Origin: Oscillospiraceae bacterium
Lineage (GTDB): Bacteria; Bacillota; Clostridia; Oscillospirales; UBA929
Length of the DNA: 64,000 bases
Reading direction: 5' to 3'
Assembly (NCBI GenBank): GCA_031265355.1
Contig: JAISCT010000060.1
Coordinates: 1-64,000, forward strand
The notes beneath the pieces were generated by a model, which worked only from the letters and a program-made list of their open reading frames with translations, was not told where the DNA came from and ran no database searches. This document shows positions 30,201-40,675 of the stretch, in pieces. Position numbers and translations under genes: made by a program. Within the stretch, counting starts at the first letter, position 1. Every line of letters starts with the position of its first letter.

Positions 30201-31334
30201 TCAGGGCGCCGTCTCCGGCCAAAGCGGCGGGGCCGCTTGCGGTGATTCCCCTGCACCGTCCGCCGCGACAGAGCCGTCCGCAAGCGGCGGGTTTGTCGCA
30301 TAGAAAATTTTAGAAACCTCCACCGTTTGAGTGTCCACGCAATCGAACAGTGTTTCATCGAAAACAGCCACATTGTTCCCGCCCTGTTTCAGCGTGCTTG
30401 CGTATTCGACGCCGTCGTAATTCTCGCTCTTGATGAATTCGGTGATGTACTGCGTCGACAGATACTCCAGCGGGCTGTCGCTTCGCCGCAGCGGTTTCGC
30501 AATCTCGGCGGCGATCTCTTGAAACACCTTGCGATTGGCCGCGAATTGTTCCAATTCACCTTCGTACAAAAACGGACTCGTCTGCGCGACGCCGGAGAGA
30601 TTGACGACCCGAATGTCGCGCGTGTTTTGAAATGTGCCGATGGTGACGTAATCAAACACACTGGCGCGCACTTCGTTGAGAACGGTTTTGACGTCCGAAG
30701 ACAGATATAAAACGCCGATCCCCTCGGGGTTAATTCGTCCGGCGCTCCGTTTGTCTCTCGACGGCGCACCCATATCGTCTTTGGAAAAACCGCCTCTGTC
30801 TGCGGAAATTCTCGCTCTGTATAACCGGGACCTCGCAGGATACATCTTCGTGACGATCGACAAAAACGACGCGAATACGCTGGCATTGAACATCCCGCTG
30901 TGAAAGCGGTTGCCGTACTTGATGGAGTTTGAGAATTCGCCCCAACTGTACCCACGCACAACGCCGTACTCGCGGAGAAAATCGCGATCCGCGAGCTGTG
31001 GAATAAACACATGTTTCGTAAAAATATCATCGCCGTCGGCATAGGCAGATTCACAGAGCTTTTTCACCAGCGTCAGTATCAGCTCCGGCTCGGCATTGAA
31101 TATGTCCCAGTCGTCGCAAAGTGCAATCTTCAAAGGCTTCGCGTCTTCACTGTCAGAAACGGAGTATGTCTGTACTAGTCCTATGATCATCTCGGCGATT
31201 GGGTTGGGCGTCGCACCGAGACCATACACCGCCGCATTCTTCGAAGCGCAGAAGTCACAATCCCCCATCTTCCCCCAGTTCTCTACGGCAGCCCGTATAT
31301 GCGCATCGCAGAAACATTCAATACAACAATTCAT
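30201..31334 (-). CDS. RES-domain toxin with HEPN/RES-type N-terminal domain
   Basis: ATG at 31334 overlaps the upstream stop (ATGA); GGAGG 10 nt before. 377 aa. The N-terminus has paired cysteines (CCIECFCDAHI, DCDFC), as in the HEPN/RES N-terminal domain. Residues ~165-345 form the RES domain: LYRARI, SAGRINPEGIGVLYLS, NEVRA, then STQYITEFIKSENYDGVEY. RES toxins (Xre-RES systems) degrade NAD+. No Xre antitoxin is adjacent; the gene is coupled to two upstream genes instead. The last ~35 residues are Pro/Ala-rich and unlike the rest. Confidence 0.85.
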   Translation of the reverse strand: MNCCIECFCDAHIRAAVENWGKMGDCDFCASKNAAVYGLGATPNPIAEMIIGLVQTYSVSDSEDAKPLKIALCDDWDIFNAEPELILTLVKKLCESAYADGDDIFTKHVFIPQLADRDFLREYGVVRGYSWGEFSNSIKYGNRFHSGMFNASVFASFLSIVTKMYPARSRLYRARISADRGGFSKDDMGAPSRDKRSAGRINPEGIGVLYLSSDVKTVLNEVRASVFDYVTIGTFQNTRDIRVVNLSGVAQTSPFLYEGELEQFAANRKVFQEIAAEIAKPLRRSDSPLEYLSTQYITEFIKSENYDGVEYASTLKQGGNNVAVFDETLFDCVDTQTVEVSKIFYATNPPLADGSVAADGAGESPQAAPPLWPETAP

Positions 31335-32263
31335 CTCGCCGTGCCTCCGTCGAGGTATTGACCGACAAGTTCCAGGTGATGCATGACGGAAAGTTTTTTG
31401 ATGGTGGGCAACCCCGGGTAATAGCCATTTTCATAATGATGTAAAAAGGCCGACAAGGCGCTGGTCTTTTGCCCCTGGTGTCCATCATAATACCACCCGA
31501 CCAGCTTCGTCACAGCTTCGTAATATTTCCCGGCCACGTCCTCCGTTCCCACATTGGAATCGGAAACAAAATGACGCATCCGCAATGTGTCGTCACTCGC
31601 AAAATACACGATGTGAATGGCCACTGCCGTAGGCGCGAATCCGCTTTCATCATATTTATTACCGACAATGGAATAGTCCCCGAAGCCGACGCAACCCTCC
31701 TCTTCAAAAAACAGATGGTCGTCGGAAAAAAATTCGTCCGTATTCTTGGCATAATCGGCGTTCTTATCCTGCTTGATAAACCGGTCTGTAAACAGAACCT
31801 TCCCCCGTTTCACCGCGCGCTTGATCTGGCGTTCATCCGGGTACAGTGTATACTGCGGGGCAGTGTCTGAGAACTGGTCTTTATAGAGCCCCAGGAAATC
31901 CCGCTTGTCGAGGATTGTGATGATATTCGATCGCGTCACGCCTTGCGCCGCCATAGCTGAAAGGACGACAGACACATTGGAACCCATCAGCAAAGCAGGC
32001 ATGACATGACCGACGACGCCGCCTCTGGCGCAGTAGGCGTCTATGAAATGGCAGCTGCCTCCGTACTCACCGACAGCCGGATTGAAAACGAGCGCCATCC
32101 TATTTTGTACGTCGGCAAATGTGCGCAGAACGGTATCAAACGTGGTCGTCAATCTCACAGGCTCCACCACAGGGATTATAGACTTGCTGAGCAGCCCGTC
32201 TCTGGCCATGTCCCTGAGCGCGAGCAGTTCATATTGCCGCCCTCTGAGATAGGGAAAATACAT
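31331..32263 (-). CDS. sce7725-family protein
   Basis: The ATG at 32263 lies 8 nt after AGGGGG and begins MYFPYLRGRQYELLAL, as expected for the family; a GTG at 32272 touching the upstream stop is the other candidate. 310 aa. I recognise the sce7725 family by this N-terminus and by its position after an sce7726-type gene. The PVVEPVRL, NPAVGEYGG and KVLFTDRFIKQ segments suggest a barrel-like ('beta protein') core, but no catalytic residue can be assigned. Its stop overlaps the RES toxin start. Confidence 0.75.
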   Translation of the reverse strand: MYFPYLRGRQYELLALRDMARDGLLSKSIIPVVEPVRLTTTFDTVLRTFADVQNRMALVFNPAVGEYGGSCHFIDAYCARGGVVGHVMPALLMGSNVSVVLSAMAAQGVTRSNIITILDKRDFLGLYKDQFSDTAPQYTLYPDERQIKRAVKRGKVLFTDRFIKQDKNADYAKNTDEFFSDDHLFFEEEGCVGFGDYSIVGNKYDESGFAPTAVAIHIVYFASDDTLRMRHFVSDSNVGTEDVAGKYYEAVTKLVGWYYDGHQGQKTSALSAFLHHYENGYYPGLPTIKKLSVMHHLELVGQYLDGGTAR

Positions 32264-32268
32264 GCCTG

Positions 32269-33144
32269 TCACCCCCTGTAAGTTGTTTGAAGGAGCTGCT
32301 CTATGTCCGGCAGTTTCTTTGTCAAATCCGAAAAATAGACAACGGATTTGAGTTCCGGCGGGATGCGTTCAAACGCAGTTTTTGTGATCTTATTTCGTTT
32401 TTTGAGTTCTTGAAAGGCCAACGCTTGCGCAGTGAGAATGGGGATCTGCCCAAACTGTGCAAGACAGGCCCGGTAGTAAAACACCGGCGCGACCTGCGGT
32501 ATATGACCGCCGTATGCCAGCAGCACATTTTCATACTCGCGTTTGCGCAGAAGGTTGAAAATGCAACTGTGGTCAAGGCAGTCGTCAAACGGCTTCGGTT
32601 CTCTGCCATGGACCTTGCTAAAAATGGTGTCGCGGTCGGACAAAACATGGATGCCGACACCTTCGCCCATAGCGCCAAACCCGGAAAGCACTCGCTCAAC
32701 CCGTTTCAGTGCACGTACCGACACCAAAATCGATACTTTTCTGAATGCCTTGTAGTAGCTGCTCACTTGGTCATACAGTCTGTCGAAGTTGTCAAGCTCG
32801 GACTTCACTTCCAGCGCGTATATCTTCTCCTCGCCGTTGATCACAATGAAATCGGCGACGGCCCGCCCGACACGCACCTTCGACAAGGCCGTCGTGGTGG
32901 CGACGCTGTGAATGCCTGCAAGCAGCTTGTTCAGCAGCGTATTCATGTAATAATACTCGTTGCGCTGTTCCTGCCCGAGGTGCGCGTATATCTCGCTGAA
33001 AAGCGCCCCGTATGTTTTGTTTTCCGGTTCGTCAATATAACGATGCACAACGCAGTCGAACACCGCGTTCGTACCGTTCCGAAGCAAGCCGCCTACAACG
33101 CCGCGTGTGAATACGCGGTGGATCGCTCTGCCGTCGTCCGCCAC
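32269..33144 (-). CDS. sce7726-family protein with PD-(D/E)XK nuclease-like core
   Basis: 291 aa from the GTG at 33144 (the first possible start after an in-frame stop). Residues 90-120 read RVGRAVADFIVINGEEKIYA then LEVKSE: Asp98 and Glu112-x-Lys114 fit the D-(X)n-ExK nuclease/restriction-endonuclease core, followed by FDRLYDQVSSYY as in many such folds. The first gene of the overlapping operon sce7726-sce7725-RES. A nucleic-acid-cleaving or -sensing role is inferred. Confidence 0.75.
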   Translation of the reverse strand: MADDGRAIHRVFTRGVVGGLLRNGTNAVFDCVVHRYIDEPENKTYGALFSEIYAHLGQEQRNEYYYMNTLLNKLLAGIHSVATTTALSKVRVGRAVADFIVINGEEKIYALEVKSELDNFDRLYDQVSSYYKAFRKVSILVSVRALKRVERVLSGFGAMGEGVGIHVLSDRDTIFSKVHGREPKPFDDCLDHSCIFNLLRKREYENVLLAYGGHIPQVAPVFYYRACLAQFGQIPILTAQALAFQELKKRNKITKTAFERIPPELKSVVYFSDLTKKLPDIEQLLQTTYRG

Positions 33145-33168: not shown

Positions 33169-33197
33169 AATATATCACACTATCCGCTAAAATGCAA
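33169..33197 (-). promoter_or_regulatory. Promoter of the sce7726-sce7725-RES operon
   Basis: Minus strand TTGCAT (33197-33192), 17 bp, TATATT (33174-33169), ending 25 bp before the GTG at 33144. The -35 box is part of one of two direct repeats. Confidence 0.75.
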
Positions 33198-33220
33198 CCA
33201 TTTCATCCGCTAAAATGCAA
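33182..33220. repeat. Two 16-bp direct repeats over the -35 region
   Basis: ATCCGCTAAAATGCAA occurs identically at 33182-33197 and 33205-33220 (23-bp period, about two helical turns). Copy 1 covers the -35 and spacer, so a bound protein would block transcription of the toxin operon. Confidence 0.75.
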
Positions 33221-34817: not shown

Positions 34818-36110
34818 ATGAAACGAAACGCATTTGAACAGCTTTTGGCATGGAAGCGCGACCCGGAGCGCAAGCCGTTGATTTTGAAAGGCGCGAGGCA
34901 GGTCGGCAAGACCTGGCTCATGCGCGAGTTCGGGGAAACGCAGTACCAAAGCTATGTCTATTTTAACTTTGACGAGGAGGACGACCTGTCTTCCATCTTT
35001 GAGACCAACAAAAGCCCGCAGCGCATCATTGAGCGGCTGGGGCTTCTGAAAGGTGAAAAAATTCTGCCGGGTGAAACGCTCATCGTCTTCGACGAGATTC
35101 AGGAATGCTCAGCGGCGCTGAACTCTCTGAAATATTTCAGGGAGCAGGCCAATGAGTATCATGTCGTCGCGGCGGGGAGTTTGCTTGGCACATTGCTCGC
35201 CAAGCCGAAGTCCTATCCGGTGGGTCAGGTCAATCTGATTGACCTCTATCCGCTGGCCTTTGACGAGTTTCTCGCCGCCGTTGATGAACCGCTCTACGGC
35301 TACTTTACGCAAATCCAAAAAAATCAGCCCATTGAGGAGATTTTCCACAACTGGCTGTTTGAAGCGTACAGCAACTACCTGATCATAGGCGGTCTGCCCG
35401 AATGCGTCGCGTCATGGGTAAGCTATAAAGACCCGCAGCGCATCCGGCAGATTCAGAACGAGTTGGTGACCATCTACGAGAACGACTTCTCCAAGCACAA
35501 CGGCAAAATCAACAGCGGCAGGATTCTGCTAGTGTTCCGCAGCATTGTGTCCCAGCTCGCCAAAGGCAATGAAAAATTCATCTATGGCAGCCTGAAAGAA
35601 GGCGCGAGGGCGCGGGAGTTTGAGGAAGCTATCGAATGGCTGGTGTCAGTGGGTATGCTGAACCGCGTTTACAACGTATCCAAGCCGGAGCATCCGTTGA
35701 AAGCCTTTGAGCAACCGAACTATTTCAAGCTGTTTCTCTTTGACGCCGGGCTTTTGAAGCATATGGCTGGCGTCGACAATGCCGCTATCCTCTTGAAAAG
35801 CGATTATCAGTTTAAAGGGCCGCTGACGGAAAACTTCGTGCTGCAGCAGCTTGCCGGGCAGTTTGAAGTGGAGCCGCGTTTCTTCGCGGACGGACGCGGC
35901 GAGGTGGATTTCCTGATTCAGAACGGCATGGAGGTCATTCCGGTGGAGGTGAAAGGCGGTGAGGACAAAACCGCCGCCAGCTTCAAGGCGTACATCAAGA
36001 ACCGCCGGCCCCGCATGGCGATCCGCTACTCCAAGCGAGGCTATGTCAAGGACGGCTGTATTACCAATATCCCGCTGTATCTTGCCTGCATCACCAGGAA
36101 ACTGATTTGA
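34818..36110 (+). CDS. AAA_14 / DUF4143 ATPase
   Basis: 430 aa; ATG after AAAGGGG. Walker A LKGARQVGKTWL (~23-34), Walker B TLIVFDEIQE (~87-96), sensor GSLLG (~118). The C-terminal DUF4143 domain ends in a restriction-endonuclease-like core (GEVDFLIQNG, then PVEVKGGE, ~365-388). This widespread prokaryotic family has no firmly established function and often sits in accessory regions. The gene is followed after 37 bp by the 59-codon gene and rtcB. Confidence 0.88.
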   Translation: MKRNAFEQLLAWKRDPERKPLILKGARQVGKTWLMREFGETQYQSYVYFNFDEEDDLSSIFETNKSPQRIIERLGLLKGEKILPGETLIVFDEIQECSAALNSLKYFREQANEYHVVAAGSLLGTLLAKPKSYPVGQVNLIDLYPLAFDEFLAAVDEPLYGYFTQIQKNQPIEEIFHNWLFEAYSNYLIIGGLPECVASWVSYKDPQRIRQIQNELVTIYENDFSKHNGKINSGRILLVFRSIVSQLAKGNEKFIYGSLKEGARAREFEEAIEWLVSVGMLNRVYNVSKPEHPLKAFEQPNYFKLFLFDAGLLKHMAGVDNAAILLKSDYQFKGPLTENFVLQQLAGQFEVEPRFFADGRGEVDFLIQNGMEVIPVEVKGGEDKTAASFKAYIKNRRPRMAIRYSKRGYVKDGCITNIPLYLACITRKLI

Positions 36111-36147: not shown

Positions 36148-36327
36148 ATGCGGAACCCTTTTCTCTTTGACGATATTGACGTTCTCCGCAATTTAGGCAA
36201 TATCCGAGATGCGGAGGAATTGCGGCGCGCGGAGGGCGACACCACCATTGAAGGATACTATGTAGCTGATTATAAAGAGCAACCGCATACCTATATGGAT
36301 GACAAGGACAACGGTGAATCGCAATGA
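36148..36327 (+). CDS. 59-aa protein coupled to RtcB (weak Fic N-terminus resemblance)
   Basis: ATG at 36148 follows GGAGG at 7 nt, and the TGA overlaps the rtcB ATG (ATGA), so the gene is very likely translated. The protein is acidic: MRNPFLFDDIDVLRNLGNIR, then DAEELRRAEGD. That stretch resembles the N-terminal helices of Fic/cell-filamentation proteins, though no Fic motif follows. It may be a small regulator or a truncated Fic relic now coupled to the ligase. Confidence 0.7.
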   Translation: MRNPFLFDDIDVLRNLGNIRDAEELRRAEGDTTIEGYYVADYKEQPHTYMDDKDNGESQ

Positions 36328-37514
36328 TCGAACTGCAGGGCAAATATAACACCGCCAAGGTGTTTACCGATAATATTGAATCCGAGGCGATTTCCCAGAT
36401 CATCAACCTGCTGAATCAGGGGTTCGTCGCCGGCAGCCAAATCCGCGTCATGCCGGACACCCACGCCGGCGCGGGCTGCACTATCGGCACGACCATGACA
36501 ATCAGCGATAAGGTTGTGCCCAACCTCGTGGGCGTGGACATCGGCTGCGGCATGGAGACGGTGATTCTGCGTGACGAGCGCGTGGAGCCGCAGCAACTAG
36601 ACAAGGCAATCCACCGCCTGATTCCAGCCGGCTTCGATACGCGTAAATCACCGCACCAGTATATGGGCGAGATGGATTTATCCAAGCTGCGTTGCGCGAA
36701 ACATGTCAATCTTGAACGGGCGGAGCTGAGCCTAGGCACGCTGGGCGGCGGCAACCACTTTATTGAGCTTGACCGCGACGGCGACGGCAGGCTCTATCTT
36801 GTCGTCCACACCGGCAGCCGGAATCTGGGCAAGCAGGTGGCCGAGCATTATCAGAACGCCGCCGCCAAAGACCTTCAGCGCAAGGCCAAGGACGTGAACG
36901 CCCTAATTGCCGACCTCAAACGGCAGGGTCGCGAAACCGAGATTCAGGCGGAACTGAAAAAGCTGGGCGTCCGCAAGGTTGACCGCAATCTTGCCTTCTG
37001 CGAGGGCGCGCTGTTCGACGATTATCTGCACGACATGGCCATCGTCCAGCGCTACGCCGACTGGAACCGCCACGCTATCGTCCGTGATATTGTCAAGGAA
37101 GTGAAGTTCAAGGTTGACGAGCAGTTTACCACCGTCCACAACTATATCGACTTGGATACCATGATCCTCCGCAAGGGCGCGATCTCCGCCAAGATCGGCG
37201 AACGCGTGTTGATCCCGATGAATATGCGGGACGGCAGCCTGATCTGCGTCGGCAAGGGCAACCCGGACTGGAACCAGTCGGCGCCGCACGGTGCCGGACG
37301 TCTGATGAGCCGGTCGGCGGCCAAACAGGCTATCACGCTGACTCAGTTTGAGAAGTCGATGGAGGGTATCTACTCCTCCACGGTGAACAAGAGTACCATC
37401 GACGAGTCGCCCTTCGCGTATAAGCCCATGGATGAGATCATCGCGAACATTGGCGACACGGCGGAGATCGTCAAAACCATCAACCCGCTGTATAACTTCA
37501 AGGCGGCGGAATAG
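36324..37514 (+). CDS. rtcB: RtcB-family RNA ligase
   Basis: 396 aa. RtcB active-site motifs are all present: MPDTHAGAGCTIGTT, GVDIGCGME (metal-binding Cys), GTLGGGNHFIEL (His/Asn), VVHTGSRNLGK, VHNYID, RKGAISA and QSAPHGAGRLMSR (the guanylated His). RtcB joins RNA 2',3'-cyclic phosphate or 3'-phosphate to 5'-OH ends using GTP. No archease or RtcA gene is adjacent. Its location in an island with nuclease- and toxin-like genes suggests RNA repair after toxin cleavage. Confidence 0.93.
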   Translation: MIELQGKYNTAKVFTDNIESEAISQIINLLNQGFVAGSQIRVMPDTHAGAGCTIGTTMTISDKVVPNLVGVDIGCGMETVILRDERVEPQQLDKAIHRLIPAGFDTRKSPHQYMGEMDLSKLRCAKHVNLERAELSLGTLGGGNHFIELDRDGDGRLYLVVHTGSRNLGKQVAEHYQNAAAKDLQRKAKDVNALIADLKRQGRETEIQAELKKLGVRKVDRNLAFCEGALFDDYLHDMAIVQRYADWNRHAIVRDIVKEVKFKVDEQFTTVHNYIDLDTMILRKGAISAKIGERVLIPMNMRDGSLICVGKGNPDWNQSAPHGAGRLMSRSAAKQAITLTQFEKSMEGIYSSTVNKSTIDESPFAYKPMDEIIANIGDTAEIVKTINPLYNFKAAE

Positions 37515-38265: not shown

Positions 38266-38811
38266 CTAAAAATCAAGAGCATTCAAAAAACTCTGAAAAC
38301 TCTTTGATTTATTTTCCGCTATCGACTCTGGTGTCATGGCGCTACCAATTTTGGATGCTATATATATCTGTCCCGCTTGTTTTGTAATACGTTTAATCAT
38401 CTGTTTCGCATTGGCGATTTTATCTGGCTCTCGATATTTTTTCTTTCCTTTATCGCGTGCAAGATTGGTCCCAAATGCAACATCTATTGATGCCAAATCG
38501 CCCAAATACCAAGATTCCAATTCATGACATACAATTCGGATTTTATAATTTTCTTTCCCGGATTTTTTGCACAAGTCATCAATGTTTTGTTTCAATTTCT
38601 TGCAGTCAGGAGAACTATCTTGATCCACGAGAACGATGACTCGTATATTCGCATCGGAATGAGCTTTCAGTTTGTTTATGATCGACTTTTTTAAGTCATC
38701 TTTCCCTTCATGATGTACAACTCGGAACTTCAACGTCGGAAATATGTTTTTGAACAATGCGCTGAGAAATGTTGACATGGACCTCTCTTCTGTCAGAAAG
38801 ACATACTTCAC
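38266..38811 (-). CDS. DUF4276 (TOPRIM-like) effector partner
   Basis: 181 aa from the GTG at 38811, 3 bp after the stop of the ATPase gene. TEERS at the N-terminus, VIVLVDQDSSP (~57-67) and CHELESWYLGD (~95-105) are the DUF4276/RloB-like pattern of acidic residues in a TOPRIM-type nuclease fold. Pairing with a single AAA ATPase gene is the layout of OLD/RloAB-like and PARIS-like two-gene immune systems. The ATPase would sense and the TOPRIM-like partner act. Confidence 0.8.
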   Translation of the reverse strand: MKYVFLTEERSMSTFLSALFKNIFPTLKFRVVHHEGKDDLKKSIINKLKAHSDANIRVIVLVDQDSSPDCKKLKQNIDDLCKKSGKENYKIRIVCHELESWYLGDLASIDVAFGTNLARDKGKKKYREPDKIANAKQMIKRITKQAGQIYIASKIGSAMTPESIAENKSKSFQSFLNALDF

Positions 38812-38814
38812 ACA

Positions 38815-39996
38815 TTACACCTCGTTCTTCGCGAAGTAACCCTGTTTCCAAAGCCAGCCCAATTTGTCGCCATATTCAACCAGCCTTGCAAGTGTCGCAT
38901 CCTTTTTCAACATCCGCGCCGTGGTGTACCCATCCGCTTTTTCTAAGACGATTACTTCCGACAATGCAACGGCATTCAGAAAGTCTGGCGAATGCGTGGA
39001 GACAAAGATCTGTCCCCGCTTTGAATACTCGCGAAATTCTTCCGCGAGTATTTCGAGTATTTCCGGATACAATTGATTTTCCGGTTCTTCAATGCAAAGA
39101 AGGGGATTGGGCTGCGGGTCATGTAATAGGACCAGATAGGCAAGCATTTTGATGGTTCCATCGGAGGTATATACAGATAAAAATGGACTTTTAAACGCGC
39201 CATCTTTAAACTTCAACAACAGTCGATTGTCTTCCGTTGTCGTGGCCTCTATGCCCGCAACGCCAGGTATGCGTTCCTGCATTTTCTGCAATATATCCTT
39301 CCATATTTCGGGGTGATTCTCATAAATAAATTTTGCGACTTGGGAGAGATTGTCTCCCGTTCGCGATAAATGTTCGCTGTAGACTGATTTCTGTTCGGTA
39401 GTCCTAGCCTCTGAAATCCGAAAATCCGAAACTGTCCAATTTTCCACCATTTTTCTGAAGGTTGCAATGGCTTCAAAATCAGAGAATTGTCCCAGGCCTT
39501 TGATGGCCAATATGTCGGCGGAATCCAGCGCCTGTTCCCGCCGTCGGTCCGCTTTTTTTACATCTTCATACGACGAAACTTTCCCAGAAACAGCTGTCCC
39601 TCTTCCGTTTGCAAATTCCAACATGCGCCAAGGGGCGCCACGACTTCCGCGGCGGTATTGCAAGATTTCTCTGCTCACGACGGGTCTTCCCGTTGAATGA
39701 GACAGCTCCAATATATATGTCACAAGTGGCTCGTCTTTTTCCGCTCGAAACTTGATTTCAAACAAGATGGACTCGTTCTCTTTTCCTCTCGACACCACTT
39801 CTTTAAAACCGCCGCGCATCTCCAGCGCTTTTCGGACATTTTGCTCAAGACAATCGCGCAAGAAGCCAAAGACGTCAAAAAAGGTGGACTTCCCCACACC
39901 ATTTTTCCCCACGACAACTGTCATATTAGAGATGCCTGTTATACTCACATCTTGCAGCGCCCGAAAATTTTTGATGTGAATGCTCTCAATGCGCAC
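38815..39996 (-). CDS. AAA_21/OLD-like ATPase, partner of DUF4276
   Basis: The GTG at 39996 lies 6 nt after AGGAGGGG; the open frame continues far upstream through the tRNA region but without a fitting start. 393 aa. SIHIKNFRALQDVSI starts an ABC/SMC-like head. Walker A GKNGVGKST (~30-38), Walker B PLLCIEEPENQLYPE (~300), and the STHSPDFLNAV motif with the switch His. Full length for the family and seemingly intact. Confidence 0.88.
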   Translation of the reverse strand: MRIESIHIKNFRALQDVSITGISNMTVVVGKNGVGKSTFFDVFGFLRDCLEQNVRKALEMRGGFKEVVSRGKENESILFEIKFRAEKDEPLVTYILELSHSTGRPVVSREILQYRRGSRGAPWRMLEFANGRGTAVSGKVSSYEDVKKADRRREQALDSADILAIKGLGQFSDFEAIATFRKMVENWTVSDFRISEARTTEQKSVYSEHLSRTGDNLSQVAKFIYENHPEIWKDILQKMQERIPGVAGIEATTTEDNRLLLKFKDGAFKSPFLSVYTSDGTIKMLAYLVLLHDPQPNPLLCIEEPENQLYPEILEILAEEFREYSKRGQIFVSTHSPDFLNAVALSEVIVLEKADGYTTARMLKKDATLARLVEYGDKLGWLWKQGYFAKNEV

Positions 39997-40233
39997 GATG
40001 AGCCCCTCCTGTTCAAAAACAGCATCCTGCCAGTGTCCCACACCAGGTAACGGATACATCGCCAACGCCTCTGCCGCGATGTCTGTAAAAAATCCGCAAC
40101 CTGTCACAGTTACCGGCAAAAGAGTGAGAACAATATTGCATAAGTTTTTTTGCCGGGCAACAAAATTCGGGGCAGCACGGGCAACTTGAGCAGCAAAAAC
40201 AAAAAGCGTGGCAACAAACGGTAGAAAGAAAAA

Positions 40234-40258
40234 GCCTGAAATCGTTGAAATTTCAGGC
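40234..40258 (-). terminator. Terminator of the tRNA-Ser gene
   Basis: On the minus strand GCCTGAAAT pairs with ATTTCAGGC (7-nt loop) and is followed by CTTTTTCTTTC, 4 bp past the CCA end. Confidence 0.85.
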
Positions 40259-40262
40259 TCCG

Positions 40263-40351
40263 TGGCGGAGAGGGTGGGATTCGAACCCACGTGGGATTGC
40301 TCCCAAACTGATTTCGAGTCAGCCCCGTTATGACCACTTCGATACCTCTCC
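40263..40351 (-). tRNA. tRNA-Ser (anticodon CGA)
   Basis: 89 nt including an encoded CCA. Acceptor stem GGAGAGG/CCTCTCC with discriminator G; T arm GTGGGTTCGAATCCCAC; anticodon stem GCTGA/TCAGT around CTCGAAA, giving CGA for UCG codons; a long variable arm (TTTGGGAGCAATCCCAC region) as in class II tRNAs. Confidence 0.96.
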
Positions 40352-40675
40352 CTATACAAGACGCCGCCGCGACGGGGATTTTCTCCCGCGTCCGCGGAGC
40401 CTCCGCATTTCATTATACGCCCAGCCAGTCATAAAATCAAGGGCGAAATTCCTCTGCCGCCCAGAGGCGGCTTCGAGCAACCGCACCCTTGCCTCAGACC
40501 GTGTCGCGGCTTTCGTGTCCTCACCGATGATACGGCGAAGGTTTGAACGGAGCTGCACAAAACCTTCCCTTGCGGCGCTGGACGTGATATACTGTATGGA
40601 CATCACAATCGGGCGTCTCTCTGCGCTGCCACCGGCAGCGGCTTGCGAGAGCTGCCCGCCTACGAGGGGCGGCCT
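40352..40675. other. Intergenic region upstream of prfA
   Basis: 324 bp. An extended -10 (TGATATACT; TATACT at 40588-40593) without a clear -35 could drive prfA, with a start near 40600. An 83-codon minus-strand frame (start 40603) has no ribosome site and is not called. Confidence 0.5.

Follow-up and report, generated by a model that had tools for sequence, protein, structure and literature searches.

What do three adjoining genes for an sce7726 protein, an sce7725 protein and a RES protein accomplish together? We addressed this question for an operon of Oscillospiraceae bacterium (assembly GCA_031265355.1), which lies within the first 64,000 nucleotides of contig JAISCT010000060.1; this whole stretch is called the window below. 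Our answer, held with slightly better than even confidence, is that the three genes form an abortive-infection or anti-phage module in which a core of the phage P4 type is joined to a RES toxin that consumes nicotinamide adenine dinucleotide (NAD+), acting like the P4 system gop-beta-cII. The computed basis of this answer is the operon itself, its conservation and spread as a unit, the catalytic residues, the relation of sce7726 to P4 CII, the probable relation of sce7725 to P4 Beta, and the split between loci with sce7725 plus RES and loci with Beta. Every functional step in the operon, including the part of sce7725 as inhibitor or trigger, is one that we infer. The reading gives a testable role to two nameless protein families, sce7725 and sce7726, and links them to two proven systems that are poorly understood, gop-beta-cII and PD-lambda-2. 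If it is true, RES, a large family of NAD+-consuming toxins, is an immune effector, and the copies in E. coli open the operon to direct tests in laboratory strains.

Conservation and mobility of the three-gene unit

The initial annotation had described three tightly coupled genes, and this description held. The adjoining open reading frames (ORFs) in 30201-33144 of the minus strand overlap by 4 bp as listed, and all three proteins scored above the cut-offs of their families: sce7726 reached 131 bits against NCBIfam NF033832 (cut-off 70), sce7725 reached 311 bits against NF033831 (cut-off 60), and the RES protein reached 61.9 bits against Pfam RES over residues 171-336 (cut-off 23.2). In an alignment of members, the invariant first methionine corresponds to the fourth residue of the sce7725 ORF as listed; translation may therefore begin at 32263, in which case sce7725 and sce7726 would not overlap. 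Chance ORFs were ruled out by the family scores and the invariant catalytic residues. The single promoter that had also been claimed found no backing, as a consensus scan of the 197 bp before sce7726 listed no site.

Conservation was evaluated by scanning contigs of bacterial genomes with sce7725 as the key. We took the best 80 of 479 confirmed places, which are nearest to the window protein and include a few near-duplicates. sce7726 stood directly upstream of sce7725 in 79 of these 80 loci and RES directly downstream in 77, with all three genes adjacent in 77. RES was absent from L034 and L061, while L099 begins inside sce7725; L028, counted among the 77, holds a RES remnant only. A one-off neighbourhood is ruled out by these 77 loci, and in the co-occurrence survey that the initial annotation had proposed, RES thus proved to be conserved beside the other two genes. 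Across 46 loci, the pairwise distances of the three proteins agreed, as for genes that travel together (Mantel r 0.80, 0.85 and 0.84; 0 of 2000 permutations; host kinship not controlled).

The unit is conserved in order and sparse in distribution. sce7725 was found in 9 of 398 genomes of the phylum of the window and in 2 of 57 related genomes, its own genome included in both counts; it occurred in none of the five others of the genus (four of them less than 90% complete) and in one of 12 from the rest of the family. The same gene order is present on plasmids of Moraxella, Pseudorhizobium, Rhizobium and Shinella; a record of Salmonella houtenae also has it, with genes of an integrative element alongside. 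When the DNA of the Salmonella operon served as query, 18 of the 5426 complete genomes of E. coli proved to hold a copy, matched over 80% or more of the operon with an identity of 95-99%. In the three of these that were viewed, the operon lies among recombinase and relaxase genes; a KwaB-like gene is a neighbour in two, one of which also has BREX and AbiE genes. The third, E. coli 300444 (L228:5109-14869), has the operon adjoining caspase, TIR, cyclase, phosphoribosyltransferase-like and reverse transcriptase genes.

Such mobility would also suit a toxin–antitoxin addiction module, in which sce7725 neutralises RES with sce7726 as a regulator or helper, and the set keeps plasmids, integrative elements and islands in place with phage protection as an incidental effect. 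The set does occur on plasmids and in integrative elements, including one of P. aeruginosa PA_HN002 for which the available part of the report lists sce7726-, sce7725- and RES-type genes without a function (PMC9394441). RES can also be broken while the other two genes remain, being split in L019, L026 and L036, reduced to the remnant in L028 and annotated as frameshifted in E. coli UTME-9. On the other side, a third conserved gene with an intact nuclease site (58 of 58 sequences) exceeds the needs of an addiction pair, and the related P4 set protects against phages according to the parts of PMC9122126 at hand. We therefore regard an addiction module as unlikely.

Some other loci differ from the common arrangement. 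On an Enterococcus plasmid (L011), and in the same gene order in a record filed as a Listeria phage (L222), sce7726 and sce7725 are followed by a GNAT-like gene that replaces RES. An Arthrobacter plasmid has sce7725, annotated short, and then an IS3 transposase. Another record filed as Arthrobacter (L069) may be wrongly named or binned, since the phylum search on its genome gave the phylum of the window. A Priestia plasmid (L111:4001-7587) encodes a RES protein followed by phospholipase D-like and Shedu-domain genes, possibly another RES defence set.

sce7726 as a relative of P4 CII and sce7725 as a probable relative of P4 Beta

The initial annotation had taken the module to be without a characterised relative, and this needs revision for two of the three proteins. 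By its sequence, sce7726 is of the family of phage P4 CII. The PADLOC model "cll" matched the window protein at 46.8 bits (E 7.8e-13), all 58 of 58 sce7726 members and P4 CII itself (376 bits); in the opposite direction, the sce7726 profile found P4 CII at 66.8 bits, and the P4 record names CII as an sce7726 family protein. It is worth mentioning that a search with PADLOC models would miss the set, as among the three proteins only sce7726 was matched, by this CII model.

The D...ExK nuclease core reported for sce7726 was upheld by the alignment, where Asp98, Glu112 and Lys114 are invariant in 58 of 58 sequences and the three residues remain so in all 41 sequences of a wider set that includes P4 CII. 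The alignments comprised the window protein with 57 of 66 length-filtered members for sce7726, 57 of 66 for sce7725 and 55 of 68 for RES; rows were chosen for full length, with broken copies and near-duplicates under-represented, so counts of invariance favour intact copies. In the structure model of sce7726 (predicted local distance difference test, pLDDT, 88.2), the predicted nuclease core runs helix, three strands, helix, strand; the strands span residues 85-92, 95-102 and 108-113, D98 and E112 lie on strands and K114 just after. The model thus has the core fold of the PD-(D/E)xK superfamily, in which adjacent strands bear D and ExK. Its best solved matches were 3dnx (Z 9.4), a protein of unknown function, and PaqCI (Z 8.7 and 8.3), a restriction enzyme of type IIS, the remainder being mostly nuclease-fold proteins at Z 4-7 and all below 8.4. 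Foldseek gave no match at E<=0.001 (best E 8.6e-3), and a sequence search of solved structures with the three protein profiles returned a single sce7726 hit at E 0.84. A PD-(D/E)xK nuclease-like fold is therefore predicted for sce7726.

With such a protein in the operon, the nuclease might itself be the main effector, cutting phage DNA or RNA, and RES a back-up suicide device for the case that the nuclease fails or is inhibited. The invariant D-ExK residues and the predicted fold are consistent with this, as is the occurrence of sce7726 without sce7725 or Beta nearby in 10 of the 56 regions described below and, as annotated, on four plasmids. We consider it improbable, because RES follows sce7725 in 18 of 20 regions and so is not an occasional extra, and because the toxic product of P4 is Gop in what is accessible of PMC9122126.

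For sce7725, a remote relationship with P4 Beta over most of its length is likely, not proven. Profile–profile comparison with hhalign aligned the two over 297 columns at 90.5% (E 1.4e-6), as compared to at most 1.0% for 60 column shuffles, 0.4% for the reversed profile, and 0.1% and 0.4% for the RES and sce7726 profiles against Beta. Among 24736 Pfam models, Beta_protein recurred in 17 of 58 sce7725 members at E<=0.1 (best E 2.7e-4), and the runner-up family in 2 of 58. The PADLOC model that recurred most was PD-Lambda-2_C (5 of 58, best E 0.0052), which P4 Beta itself matches at 49.5 bits.

The structure model of sce7725 (pLDDT 93.2; predicted template-modelling score 0.92) resembles triose-phosphate isomerase (TIM) barrels generally, with a best Z of 11.2 and many unrelated enzymes near 10, and Foldseek likewise returned only general TIM barrels, so the fold assigns no function. 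Among viral proteins, one of a Gordonia phage, itself uncharacterised, was the best structural match (E 3.6e-10, TM 0.62). The conserved polar residues E37, N64, D163 and D199 are found where predicted strands end or immediately beyond, which suggests a placement like that of active-site residues in barrel enzymes.

The surroundings of sce7726 fall into two architectures. We searched for sce7726 in three phyla, where it was found in 24 of 398, 19 of 398 and 16 of 296 genomes, the names of the second and third phylum being inferred from the anchors Stenoxybacter and Sphingobacteriaceae. The window aside, 56 regions were compared: 18 had sce7725 plus RES, 2 had sce7725 without RES, 25 had Beta, 10 had neither, and in one sce7726 was not re-found. 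Genomes G702, G623 and G987 (under the cut-off) and a second match in G1118 stand outside this set. Six regions initially lacked an sce7726 gene call; a six-frame search placed three with Beta, two with sce7726 alone and one with none. RES adjoins sce7725 in 18 of the 20 sce7725 regions, or in 16 of 18 when the genomes used to reach their phylum (L201, L215) are left aside; some of these regions are nearly identical (L208-L210). The two exceptions are L024, where sce7725 is broken, and L212, where it is not.

This RES family was found in none of the 25 Beta regions. The general Pfam RES model detected a RES gene in 7 of 22 Beta genomes (22 of the 25 were covered), in each case on a contig other than that of Beta. 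The accompanying sce7726 proteins differ as well: those beside sce7725 are long (283-327 aa by ORF calls, one broken copy aside) and co-directional, while those beside Beta measure 188-281 aa in 21 of 22 regions, with one of 341 aa that is perhaps a start error, and mostly run against Beta, as in P4. Two Beta genes from these regions were confirmed by Pfam at 146 and 197 bits. One genome (G1132) has both types of locus, on separate contigs (L218 with Beta, L209 with sce7725 and RES).

Different genes stand beside Beta, namely Gop in P4, a 131-aa protein in Pasteurella phage Pmp11, a set with a capP-like gene, and the partners in PD-lambda-2, while RES stands beside sce7725; toxins therefore appear to be exchanged around related cores. 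The capP-like set occurs in five regions (L155, L197, L199, L200 and L202), each with a 145-229-aa protein, a peptidase-like gene, Beta and a convergent short sce7726; all five peptidase-like genes match the PADLOC capP model at 93-110 bits and PD-Lambda-2_B more weakly. Here the P4-type core looks to be arranged in yet another way, one akin to PD-lambda-2. sce7726 is also found on Staphylococcus and mycobacterial plasmids (L106, L108, L109 and L110) with no annotated sce7725 or Beta partner, the plasmid annotation being incomplete; one of these sce7726 genes follows a type I restriction R subunit gene.

Tentatively, a broader view can be put forward, that of a modular family built on a nuclease (sce7726/CII) and a TIM-barrel switch (sce7725/Beta), with toxins that can be exchanged: Gop, the HigB/HigA-peptidase of PD-lambda-2, RES and, in one lineage of Enterococcus, perhaps a GNAT enzyme. 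There, sce7725 would itself control the toxin, either as an enzyme or as a sensor of a ligand, and the set would provide the first case of a tested immune system whose effector is RES. The idea of an immune RES as such has already been proposed, since RES-clade domains were counted among those deployed by prokaryotic immune systems in a 2022 survey, in its accessible parts (PMC9503650).

The RES protein and a proposed mechanism

Pfam RES was matched by 56 of 56 members, and in the genome of the window the gene of the operon is the only RES match. Five of the six invariant residues of the catalytic domain (Table 1), R173, R200, Y210, S313 and N321, could be mapped to R23, R82, Y93, S184 and N193 of NatT, aided by an alignment to one ordinary RES protein; the NatT residues were taken from the portion of PMC11535050 available, where NatT is described as an NAD+ phosphorylase. 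Other RES toxins consume NAD+ according to the literature. The initial annotation had called the protein a cysteine-bearing HEPN/RES-type toxin. The RES domain and the cysteines, which form a Zn-ribbon-like motif (C4, C7, C26 and C29), stand, and the HEPN label was not supported: the N-terminal part is at best HEPN/RES-NTD1 (PF18870), which the window protein matches at 15.2 bits, below the cut-off of 27.4; at E<=0.1, the domain was matched by 44 of 56 members. HEPN/RES-NTD1 is helical and occurs at the N terminus of fusions with HEPN or RES effectors, according to passages of PMC3710099. For the Rx4-6H motif, no R and H 4-11 columns apart, each kept in at least half of the rows, were found in the first 150 residues of the RES alignment, and a reading of the protein as a HEPN RNase has no support.

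RES might instead make a nucleotide signal or modify a macromolecule rather than consume NAD+ in bulk, with the sce7725 barrel as an enzyme or sensor of the product. Reactions of RES relatives do vary, including phosphorylases, ADP-ribosyltransferases and a predicted glycohydrolase in the sections of PMC12457610 at hand, and the barrel positions of E37, N64, D163 and D199 would suit an enzyme. The five mapped residues fit the NAD+ phosphorylase active site of NatT, and we judge this alternative quite improbable.

Under the favoured reading of an anti-phage module, RES would be the toxin and would break down NAD+, probably by phosphorolysis to ADP-ribose-1''-phosphate. sce7726 would sense or cut phage nucleic acid, and sce7725 may be the switch between infection and RES, either an inhibitor, as in P4, or a trigger, as in PD-lambda-2. 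Once freed, RES would drain NAD+, and growth would stop before phage release. sce7725 is the likely switch because Gop of P4 is toxic without Beta and the Beta-like protein of PD-lambda-2 is needed for defence, as given in the parts available of PMC9122126, which also has gop-beta-cII protecting against lambda and P1, and of PMC9519451.

Among known systems, gop-beta-cII comes nearest, as does PD-lambda-2 by way of Beta, given that sce7726 is of the CII family and sce7725 a probable Beta relative. With gop-beta-cII, the operon shares a CII-family protein, three genes that include a toxin, and a mobile, accessory nature, while the toxin is RES here and the 133-aa Gop in P4. No gop counterpart emerged, as the RES profile scored 1.5 bits against Gop and PADLOC gave no gop match for the RES protein. 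A view of Gop as a membrane protein was poorly supported, as a hydropathy count gave one stretch for Gop, none for the Pasteurella phage neighbour and one for sce7725 too. PD-lambda-2 is described as an abortive-infection system derived from a toxin–antitoxin pair, with HigB-like, HigA-peptidase and P4 Beta-like components (PMC9519451, in part). The Beta-like component is what the operon shares with it, 5 of 58 sce7725 members matching one C model weakly, whereas its HigB-like and HigA-peptidase proteins contrast with the CII-family nuclease and RES; neither was matched among the three window proteins by Pfam, NCBIfam or PADLOC. As these two systems are defined, the set belongs to neither of them, but it probably works like them.

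The RES–Xre systems NatT–NatR, MbcT–MbcA and ParT–ParS share the RES domain with its conserved residues. They differ in that no Xre, MbcA or ParS antitoxin adjoins RES here; as had been noted, sce7725 and sce7726 take that place, and the RES protein carries the Zn-ribbon-like motif and the HEPN/RES-NTD1-like part. The HEPN/RES-NTD1 fusions of Anantharaman 2013 (PMC3710099) have the same domain order, including the Zn ribbon of some RES fusions, whereas RES is predicted there as an RNase and the passages available do not mention sce7725 or sce7726 partners. Elsewhere, two papers list sce7725 and sce7726 genes without function, and no paper on the three-gene set was found, in a coverage mostly outside preprints and subscription papers and in partly accessible texts; the main text of DefensePredictor (PMC13092281) was searched by terms.

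Several observations weigh against the anti-phage reading. Addiction modules, too, are commonly found near defence genes. All genes of the operon lie on one strand, whereas P4 cII runs against beta; sce7725 and sce7726 are co-directional in the window and in all 20 sce7725 regions, so the convergent order of P4 is absent. With respect to Beta, the window sce7725 scores 15.0 bits against Pfam PF14350, under the cut-off of 27, and matches no PADLOC model. There is no Beta hit at E<=0.1 for 41 of 58 sce7725 members, and the best single Pfam E-value (1.3e-4) is that of one member against an aldolase family. Plain HMMER sees an N-terminal motif only, with 6.1 bits for Beta as compared to 5.9 for a chance match to Gop. 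P4 Beta is also absent among the 50 structural matches listed for sce7725 (BFVD was not checked for containing it), and the Beta relation accordingly rests on sequence profiles. An inhibitor role of sce7725 is doubtful, because the Beta-like protein of PD-lambda-2 is not needed for neutralising the toxin in the parts of PMC9519451 available. Some RES proteins are non-toxic alone (PMC11535050 and PMC12457610, in part), and as of 2024 no RES toxin–antitoxin system had been implicated in immunity, as far as the accessible text of PMC11535050 goes.

Genomic setting of the operon

The operon lies in an island with a GC content of 44-56% at 30-40 kb of the window, between flanks of mostly 59-71%. 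A tRNA-Ser gene is located at the right edge of this low-GC island, and no att-like repeat of at least 12 bp was found between its two ends. Just upstream of the operon is a 16-bp direct repeat (Table 1), which was not seen before the relatives of the operon; among up to 58 rows, 7, with the window as one of them, are preceded by exact repeats of at least 11 bp, of any sequence.

Table 1. Features of the operon, with positions in the window
Feature	Position	Strand	Description
sce7726 (CII-family) PD-(D/E)xK nuclease-like protein	32269..33144	-	291 aa; D98, E112, K114
sce7725	31331..32272	-	313 aa; predicted (beta/alpha)8 barrel, probable remote P4 Beta relative; candidate switch of RES
RES protein	30201..31334	-	377 aa; Zn-ribbon-like CxxC...CxxC, HEPN/RES-NTD1-like part, RES domain
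RES catalytic domain	30327..30824	-	R173, R200, Y210, E221, S313, N321 invariant (56 aligned sequences)
16-bp direct repeat x2, possible operator	33182-33197 and 33205-33220		just upstream of operon

The setting among defence genes, which the initial annotation had pointed out, was confirmed in the form of candidate defence genes within the island: a Fic gene (SoFic), an AAA_14/DUF4143 gene and a DUF4276/AAA_21 pair. The AAA_14/DUF4143 ATPase (34818-36110, plus strand) corresponds to the PADLOC candidate PDC-S01 at 540 bits. The pair (38266-40413, minus strand) consists of a DUF4276 protein and an AAA_21 ATPase and matches PADLOC HEC-01, the ATPase at 553 bits. As listed, the ATPase ORF (532 aa) overlaps the tRNA-Ser gene (40263-40351) and its family matches start near residue 141, so that its start is probably near 39993. 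An RtcB-family RNA ligase (36324-37514, plus strand) is encoded within the same island.

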